From positions 1 through 36,216 of IMG/VR virus record IMGVR_UViG_3300027742_000020: a stretch of 36,216 nucleotides of DNA; one strand, written 5' to 3'. Below, piece by piece: positions 9,651-11,497 of this stretch. This stretch comes from a virus. The notes under the pieces were generated by a model. The model saw only the letters and a program-made list of their open reading frames with translations. It was not told the DNA's origin and searched no databases. The position numbers and the translations under genes were made by a program. The stretch's first letter is position 1. Each line of letters starts with the position of its first letter.

Positions 9651-9669
9651 ACGTAAACCTCTTTAAAAA

Positions 9670-11154
9670 TTAGACATACAAGGCCGCCCGCACGCCACCA
9701 TAGCTGCTACCATACGCGCGCGAATAAGTGAAATAGACACGCCAGACGCCCGAGAGCGCACTGGTGGCCCAATGGCCACCCGAAACCGGGCACACATCGT
9801 CCACGCGATCGTCATAAAAACGGTCATGACCAAACAGATCTGTGCCAGACGTACTATTAACGCCAGTAGCAAGAGGAATGCCCGCGCATGAGGCTTGCCA
9901 GTCTTTGCCCGACGTTGCACTTGAGAATACTTGCTGTGTACCGTTGCCCATCTCCAAACCACGAGACGTACCTGTGAGCGCACCAATACTAGCACCCAGT
10001 GACTCATAGTTTGCTGCGATACCCGCTGCACCCCATGCGTCATTAGCTGCCGAGGCTCCGCTTGTTAGTGCGGATGCTTTAGCCGTTGTTTTTAGCGCGT
10101 AGAACGTACCTGATAGTTGTGTGACACCTAAGCAGATCTCGTACATATTGCCGTTGAGATCTGCCACGCCATTTGCTTGCCCGTTATGTGTCGTCTTAGC
10201 AAACGGTAGTGCCGAACCAGTCTTACCAGCATTACTATAGCCTGTTGCAGTGTATTTAACCGTTGCATCATTAACGTCACCCAGCACATTGTTGTTATTG
10301 CCTTTAGGGTAGTTAGCAACGCCCGTCGCGTCATACCATGCGCAGTTATCGGTGCTCGTTGCTGCTTGCGCATGAGCCATAGACAGTAGTGATAACGCTC
10401 GTTGCACAAACAATGTCGTGACAAAAAATTCTGAACCGCGCGTCTTAACCGCGTCAATAGCACCCGCGAAAGTGTTTGCAGGCGTACCTGTTAAGCCGCT
10501 ATACGGATTGTTAGCACTGCTTGAGGATAATGGATTGCTATTTTTGACTGAGCTAGCAATACCGCCATTATTACTTGCTTGATATTTATCAACAAAAAAT
10601 CCGTCTTTGATTTGTCCGCCATCATAAAATGCACGATGTAACGCATACCCTGCGGCATTAGCAGCCTCTACGCTATCAAAGTCATGCTTGCTCTTAACAT
10701 CAAGCGAGTTTAGACCGTAATCAGTTGCGCGTGGACTATCTGCACCGCCCCAACGGTAATAAAACATAGGTATCCAACACATAACAGAACCATCACTGTG
10801 CTGATAGTTACCGTAGTTTTCATGGCCTTCTGTGGTTGTACCTTCCATCTCGCTCATGCCAAGCGGTAGCGTGGCGGTAATGCCTACCCCAAATAACGCC
10901 GTGCCCTGTATGCCGATGTTGTTAATGGTTGTGTTTGCAGCTTCAAATTGATAAGCGCCGTGCGTGATAGGCTCGCAGCCATCTGCTACATATGTAATGC
11001 CGCAGTTTATGTCGGTAATGGGGTTAAATGACCAGTTGCCTGCTGTATCAGGGGTTGATGTGCCGATATGATCGCCCGTTTCCCAGTCAAATAGTAGTAC
11101 ATAATCAACTGGCTCACCGTTATACTTTTTTGCCTTACCCTCAATTTTTGACAT
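9670..11154 (-). CDS. Tail receptor-contact protein with C-type-lectin/FGE-like domain and DGR-type variable C-terminus, 494 aa
   Basis: Residues about 1-70 look like a small carboxypeptidase-regulatory-like beta domain (PDTAGNWSFNPI). From about 85 the protein resembles the formylglycine-generating-enzyme type of C-type lectin fold: GYALHRAFYDGG, KDGFFVDKYQAS, and GVADLNGNMYEI at 329-340, the counterpart of the family's GNVWEW motif. The last ~35 residues (GG at 459-460, then HW at 461-462, SGVW at 468-471, SRA at 478-480, GVRAAL at 487-492) match the conserved frame of variable proteins mutated by diversity-generating retroelements. The fold displays variable residues for ligand binding, so host receptor recognition is likely. 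It is coupled to its neighbours, with GAGG 7 bases before the ATG. Confidence 0.82.
   Translation of the reverse strand: MSKIEGKAKKYNGEPVDYVLLFDWETGDHIGTSTPDTAGNWSFNPITDINCGITYVADGCEPITHGAYQFEAANTTINNIGIQGTALFGVGITATLPLGMSEMEGTTTEGHENYGNYQHSDGSVMCWIPMFYYRWGGADSPRATDYGLNSLDVKSKHDFDSVEAANAAGYALHRAFYDGGQIKDGFFVDKYQASNNGGIASSVKNSNPLSSSSANNPYSGLTGTPANTFAGAIDAVKTRGSEFFVTTLFVQRALSLLSMAHAQAATSTDNCAWYDATGVANYPKGNNNNVLGDVNDATVKYTATGYSNAGKTGSALPFAKTTHNGQANGVADLNGNMYEICLGVTQLSGTFYALKTTAKASALTSGASAANDAWGAAGIAANYESLGASIGALTGTSRGLEMGNGTQQVFSSATSGKDWQASCAGIPLATGVNSTSGTDLFGHDRFYDDRVDDVCPVSGGHWATSALSGVWRVYFTYSRAYGSSYGGVRAALYV
9673..9777 (-). other. Candidate DGR variable repeat (VR)
   Basis: This 3' end of the lectin-like gene is clearly more GC-rich than the flanking sequence. 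The residues where DGR proteins vary are encoded here by codons ending in C or T: CAT, ACC, CTC, CGT, TAT, ACT, TAT, TAT, GGT, AGC, TAT, GGT. The residues between them fit the invariant frame. That is what adenine mutagenesis of AAC/AAT template codons leaves behind. No template repeat or reverse transcriptase gene was found in the window. Confidence 0.62.
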
Positions 11155-11155
11155 A

Positions 11156-11497
11156 TTAAATCCTCACCTTTAGCCCAACGATGCCCACATAGCCGCCTTG
11201 GTAGATTTTATCTTTGTTGAGCACTATTTCAGCGGCAGTATAGTTAGCAATAACTGCACCAGTCGCATCAAGCAGTTTTGCCGACGTTGGCACTCCTGAT
11301 GCAATAGCGATGGCCTCAGGCGGCGTTTTAAACGTCAAAACACCGCCTGTAACACTAAGTTCGACTGGGTTAGTTAACGCAAGCTCAACTGCAAGCGTTG
11401 TATCTATATAGACTGACAGCACTGAGTTTGTGCCGACATTAAGTTTGTCAGCAAGTCCTTGCAGCATCGCGTTTTTTGCATCATCACTTAATATCAT
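11156..11497 (-). CDS. Small tail-associated protein, 113 aa
   Basis: The protein (MILSDDAKNAMLQGLADKLN ... GGYVGIVGLKVRI) is a compact alpha/beta domain with hydrophobic strands and no signal or membrane segment. Proteins of this size often sit between the large tail/fibre genes of siphophages as assembly or connector proteins, but I cannot name a family. Its ATG overlaps the stop of the upstream 1210-aa gene (TAATG), and the lectin-like gene starts 1 base after its stop, indicating translational coupling and shared stoichiometry control. Confidence 0.7.
   Translation of the reverse strand: MILSDDAKNAMLQGLADKLNVGTNSVLSVYIDTTLAVELALTNPVELSVTGGVLTFKTPPEAIAIASGVPTSAKLLDATGAVIANYTAAEIVLNKDKIYQGGYVGIVGLKVRI

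Follow-up and report, generated by a model that had tools for sequence, protein, structure and literature searches.

The prototype of the diversity-generating retroelements (DGRs) is that of Bordetella phage BPP-1, in which a hairpin just downstream of the variable region (VR), with a loop of four bases and the loop consensus GRNA, is needed for efficient homing (PMC3240598). Deletion of this hairpin impairs homing in E. coli severely, though not fully (PMC12875486). The locus analyzed here lies in a virus record from IMG/VR of 36,216 bases without end repeats, which we refer to as the window. Like BPP-1 with its Mtd, it has a tail protein of C-lectin fold with a C-terminal VR, hypervariable codons of the AAY type and a GC-rich VR end, and relatives of the window also possess the GRNA-loop hairpin. 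In contrast to BPP-1, the window has no reverse transcriptase (RT), Avd, template repeat (TR) or hairpin, and the fold match to Mtd is distant (Z 12.5). The closest solved fold is TaqVP of Thermus aquaticus (PDB 5VF4, PMC6328139), whose VR sits at the same C-terminal place; TaqVP, however, shows 20% identity and is served by its own DGR. The Psychrobacter-type DGR of contig L041 and of P. faecalis DSM 14664 (L025) shares the target family, and the L041 TR is a near-template of the window VR, but these DGRs have the full order VR-hairpin-avd-TR-RT and reside in other phage backbones. A VR-bearing target without a working adjacent RT was described in Pseudogulbenkiania, as a distal target beside a mutated RT (PMC3521204); there, the target is presumed to be served by an intact RT at another place in the genome, whereas none is known for the window. 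Finally, Psychrobacter phage vB_PmaS_Y8A (Y8A) has the same backbone, slot and anchor of about 70 aa, but a ConA-like lectin head and no DGR-type VR.

The target gene encodes a product of 494 aa (Table 1). Its last 35 codons on the minus strand are positions 9673-9777, as the sequence-only reading stated, and contain the invariant frame GG-x-W, SGVW, SRA and GVRAAL. The next gene does follow directly after the target stop, with a spacing of 19 bases instead of the 20 given by that reading; its Y8A homologue is annotated as 'Mu-like prophage tail protein gpP'. The relatives found suggest Psychrobacter as the host group of the window phage.

Table 1 Features of the target gene and its surroundings in the window.
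Feature	Position	Strand	Basis
Target gene: putative tail-associated receptor-binding protein, FGE-type C-type-lectin fold, DGR variable-protein family	9670..11154	-	ORF, AF2 model, Foldseek, profile match
N-terminal anchor, aa 1-71, phage backbone	10942..11154	-	56-69% identity to same-slot genes of L055, L056, L058 and Y8A
Module, probably imported, aa 72-494, common to DGR target genes of other phages	9673..10941	-	67-86% identity
VR proper (template-homologous stretch)	9682..9780	-	Gap-free alignment to L041 TR
IMH-like GC-rich 3' end of VR, GGCGTGCGGGCGG, identical to L041 template	9684..9696	-	Alignment; function by analogy
Intergenic stretch; site of avd leader, hairpin, TR and RT in relatives, none here	9651..9669	-	Hairpin test negative; no RT/avd/TR
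Preceding backbone gene, 113 aa, position conserved in relatives	11156..11497	-	Comparison with backbone relatives
Next gene, Mu gpP-like tail protein of phage backbone	7410..9650	-	58-71% identity to L055-L058

We collected related target genes from viral contigs and bacterial genomes. In seven relatives of the first set, a second copy of the VR is located about 560 bases downstream, adjoining RT and Avd (identified by PF00078, PF22296 bAvd and phrog_3206), and the VR and this copy differ at hardly any position other than those with A in the copy. The closest relatives of the window (L002, L003, L004 and L024; 85-86%) have no second VR copy downstream. A template predicted from the VRs of these relatives, TCTGGNNNGTCAAYTTCNNNAAYTCGCGC, was used as a search pattern and matched one contig only, L041, at a site with an avd gene on one side and a DGR-type RT on the other; the pattern fixes some sites of this match, and the gene context is its independent confirmation. 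L041 carries a complete cassette in the order VR-hairpin-avd-TR-RT, and its repeat, flanked by avd and RT, contains AAY template codons. A search with the pattern of the VR scaffold gave two further loci, L142 and L143, both matching by chance.

In the alignment with the L041 TR, mismatches of the window VR fall on 14 of 24 template adenines and on 4 of 69 other bases (Fisher p=2.4e-7). The mismatches are thus sharply confined to template adenines and not evenly spread, and the scaffold codons of the VR are near-invariant. The claim that variable codons end in C or T holds for all 14 codons with a template A at position 1 or 2. However, the earlier codon list contains CTC (L467) and GGT aligned to template GTT, neither of which derives from an adenine according to the closest template, and it omits GCC (A463). 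The proposed extent of 9673-9777 also needs correction, since template homology spans 9682-9780 and fades near 9797, with codons 491-494 lying beyond it. The tract is indeed GC-richer than its surroundings (61.9% vs 49.0% in the whole gene). The last ~33 codons of the target gene are a genuine DGR variable region, far beyond chance, and the adenine-site differences together with the C/T-ending codons indicate that it was made by a DGR of the L041 type. By analogy to BPP-1, positions 9684..9696 may act as an IMH-like element.

A Pfam search of the target protein gave no match, so that a structure was needed to establish its fold. The AlphaFold2 model, built for aa 69-494 from an alignment of 41 sequences (pLDDT 85.5, pTM 0.90), matched TaqVP with a Foldseek E of 1e-11 (Z 28.2, rmsd 2.9 over 293 residues), followed by Mtd (Z 12.5), TvpA (2y3c, Z 11.2) and formylglycine-generating enzymes. 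5VF4 was also the sole match in a profile search of PDB sequences (E 4.5e-7). The model thus agrees with the earlier description of the gene as lectin-like, with a predicted C-type-lectin fold and the VR at the C-terminus, and the protein probably serves as a receptor binder.

Two parts of the protein have different relatives. Matches to L002, L004, L006, L007, L024, L025 and L060 begin at aa 72-79, while four backbone relatives keep the first ~70 residues at the same slot and continue into unrelated sequence, which in Y8A is the ConA-like lectin; in L057, a fifth backbone relative, the anchor is absent altogether. No RT or DGR cassette was found in the whole records of the backbone relatives. 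A shared anchor with unrelated heads, together with matches to DGR phages that start only at aa ~72, points to a swap of the head module. We considered L062 as a DGR phage of the same backbone on account of a long alignment from aa 12 and rejected it, its N-terminus and flanks being unrelated. In another relative of the target (L063, G015:C22:44-1588), the last ~30 residues are replaced by unrelated sequence, i.e. the VR end was swapped out.

The sequence-only reading had described a DGR variable region without its retroelement, and both parts of this description are supported. In the window record, the search for RT yielded neither a PF00078 nor a tblastn match, there was no match to Avd, and the search for a second copy of the VR, as for a TR, returned only the VR itself. 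The TR that matches the window VR sits in another phage, L041. A TR like that of L041 was not found in plasmids, nor was the window junction TTGTATNNNTAATTTTTAAAGAGG found in viral contigs.

The GRNA-loop hairpin is likewise absent just downstream of the window VR. Its form with a Watson-Crick stem in the relatives is GGCGGC-GATA-GCCGCC, and short-stem forms with tandem G.A pairs are CTGAGC-GATA-GCGAAG, GGGAGT-GATA-ACGACC and CCGAAC-GATA-GTGAGG. The first of these, at L041:194-220, has two Watson-Crick pairs beside the GATA loop and then tandem G.A pairs. Stems of this kind, which differ from the published GC-rich stems of 7-10 bp, covary between DGR-bearing loci. The hairpin separates the two classes of loci (Fisher p=2e-11): 54 of the 55 DGR-bearing loci have it, against L005 alone among the 13 without a cassette, and it turns up in 1% of shuffles. 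This fit is inflated because the motif was defined after viewing these sequences, although the loop equals the published consensus GRNA. L139, the 55th DGR-bearing locus, has the hairpin with one G.T pair.

These loci come from a wider profile scan that yielded 80 loci, pooled with the earlier ones after removal of identical stretches. TR and RT are kept in 55 of them, 13 are cassette-free, 10 are partial, mostly owing to contig ends or the TR threshold, and two are too short. The cassette-free class comprises loci with the target end and at least 1.5 kb downstream without a cassette, except L004 (0.7 kb), and accounts for about one in six classifiable loci, with near-identical copies (L011/L012) still counted. 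The distance from the VR to the downstream TR and RT does not exceed a few kb in any of the 55 cassette-bearing relatives. Intermediate states occur as well: L005 has an intact hairpin and no cassette, L024 and L002 have a truncated leader, and L021, a true relic among the partial loci, retains only the last ~84 residues of the RT, whose remnant begins 20 bases behind the stop of the target. In this degraded DGR (L021:9603-9873), an ATG stands just before the RT remnant and the hairpin is still present.

Near-identical pairs allowed a comparison of VRs. The active pair L019/L020 has most of its 28 differences inside the VR. Among cassette-free pairs, L002 and L003 show no difference in 4.2 kb, and L011 and L012 have one of 11 differences inside the VR. 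Between L004, L024 and the window, only seven of the 78 positions preceding the VR differ, while the A-sites differ at 16-20 of 24. Near-identical bases before the VR with divergent A-sites imply that the three VRs were written or exchanged separately, which speaks against a frozen VR; the differences call for separate captures, for local gene conversion once the lineages had separated, or for trans homing, and capture or local recombination is enough. L002 and L024 have the same post-VR junction and different VRs, and a recombination tract covering the last ~60 codons is visible upstream between them. This tract explains their VR difference, if not uniquely, so that we rejected the divergence as proof of trans homing.

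A DGR RT of this type occurs in 3 of 105 Psychrobacter genomes. One of the Psychrobacter genomes (G102) contains three DGR prophage loci on contigs C9 and C12 (L060, L061 and L062); the two on C12 are ~35 kb apart and have the same target and VR, possibly as tandem prophages or an assembly duplicate. No DGR RT occurs in the P. nivimaris genome from which L024 comes, and a search for a TR with that of L025 returned chance matches only. The only RT there, a chromosomal protein of 480 aa (L027) beside a uvrA-like gene and a SWIM-like protein, is retron-like according to the St85/Ec67 models and lacks DGR context, and was dismissed as a trans-acting DGR.

In L002/L003, L024 and L004, the cassette-free target is located inside a split P2-type sheath gene (L024:9144-11925, L002:557-3302, L004:3780-6520). 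The order is an N-half (~183 aa), an Ig-like and DGR-lectin gene in the -1 frame, and a separate C-half (~199 aa); in L024, both halves have PHROG tail-sheath matches and the C-half matches Phage_sheath_1C. In L024, L002 and L004, the N-half ends in CCG GGA AAG TAG, which provides the slippery heptamer G_GGA_AAG in the right phase. The Ig-like part of the target frame in L024 has no start codon and would therefore be entered only by a -1 shift. Comparison with shuffles shows a better stem after GGGAAAG for L024 (z -3.5) and L004 (z -2.1); the stem of L002 (z -0.7) does not stand out. The GenBank phage MF417929.1 (L144:1942-4570, Bracchivirus) has the same split and the same GGGAAAG heptamer and phase with an unrelated insert; the arrangement thus recurs with different adhesin-like inserts. 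Fusions of sheath N-half, Ig and DGR-lectin, displayed along the tail, are predicted from these reading frames.

Taken together, we consider it likely that the module of aa ~72-494 was captured from a DGR phage without the cassette and is now frozen. The 3' end of the target would have been written by adenine-directed mutagenic retrohoming in another, DGR-bearing phage of the Psychrobacter type. The receptor-binding module, which extends from aa ~72 to the stop codon, would then have been brought by recombination into the slot for the head in this Mu-like-headed siphophage, where it replaced a different binding head on the conserved anchor of ~70 aa. Neither the avd-TR-RT cassette nor the homing hairpin that follows the VR would have been transferred, and the window phage would thus carry one fixed, intact receptor-binding variant. 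This direction of transfer is the one we infer, and the window VR appears to be inactive at present. Between the two options put forward by the sequence-only reading, a frozen relic is favoured over a DGR acting from outside, because the homing hairpin is missing, same-backbone phages show no DGR at the slot, relatives without a cassette are frequent, and near-identical pairs of such relatives lack the VR differences of the active pair.

Ongoing diversification of the window VR in trans, with a host DGR or that of a co-resident prophage as the source, is unlikely. DGR prophages do co-reside, with three DGR RTs in G102, the IMH-like end of the window VR exactly matches the L041 TR, E. coli supports homing on a separate replicon (PMC12875486) and distal DGR targets have been reported (PMC3521204). 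Yet no GRNA hairpin was found after the window VR, the RT type is present in only 3 of the 105 Psychrobacter genomes, L024, the closest cassette-free relative in a sequenced genome, is without a DGR RT there, and near-identical cassette-free contigs do not show VR differences of the active type. Slightly less probable still is that the cassette was once present in the lineage of the window phage and was deleted in place instead of being left behind at import. No same-backbone relative has a DGR at the slot, and the window retains no scrap of avd leader, hairpin or RT, in contrast to L005, L021 and L024, even though such relics (the L021 RT remnant, the L005 hairpin, the truncated leader of L024 and L002) show that decay occurs among relatives. 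We give little credence to a cassette in a part of the phage genome beyond the 36-kb record: the record may be a fragment, as terminal repeats are absent and relatives measure 40-46 kb, but TR and RT follow the VR within a few kb in every cassette-bearing relative, and complete or larger backbone relatives have no RT. Phage tips evolve fast, and ordinary diversifying selection on the receptor-binding tip might produce a variable end with no DGR ancestry; the adenine-site bias (p=2.4e-7), the near-invariant scaffold codons, the AAY template codons in a repeat flanked by avd and RT, and the TaqVP fold leave this explanation with almost no probability.

A DGR target as such is of a known kind; the captured, recurrent variant without cassette and hairpin is new, as far as the open-access papers that were searched show. 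Since the GRNA hairpin is so closely tied to an intact cassette, it can be used at sequence level to tell living DGR targets from dead ones. Surveys for DGRs take the RT as their starting point and so easily overlook variable regions that have been stranded. We tentatively suggest, as a possibility rather than a probability, a shared pool of DGR-made receptor modules, from which phages without a DGR repeatedly capture ready variants or convert only the VR of a captured copy, such that the retroelement of one phage would supply host-range variation to unrelated phages, in siphophage heads as well as in split tail sheaths. Should DGR products pass between phages without their machinery, the retroelements of other phages would be the source of some of the host-range variation in phages that lack a DGR.
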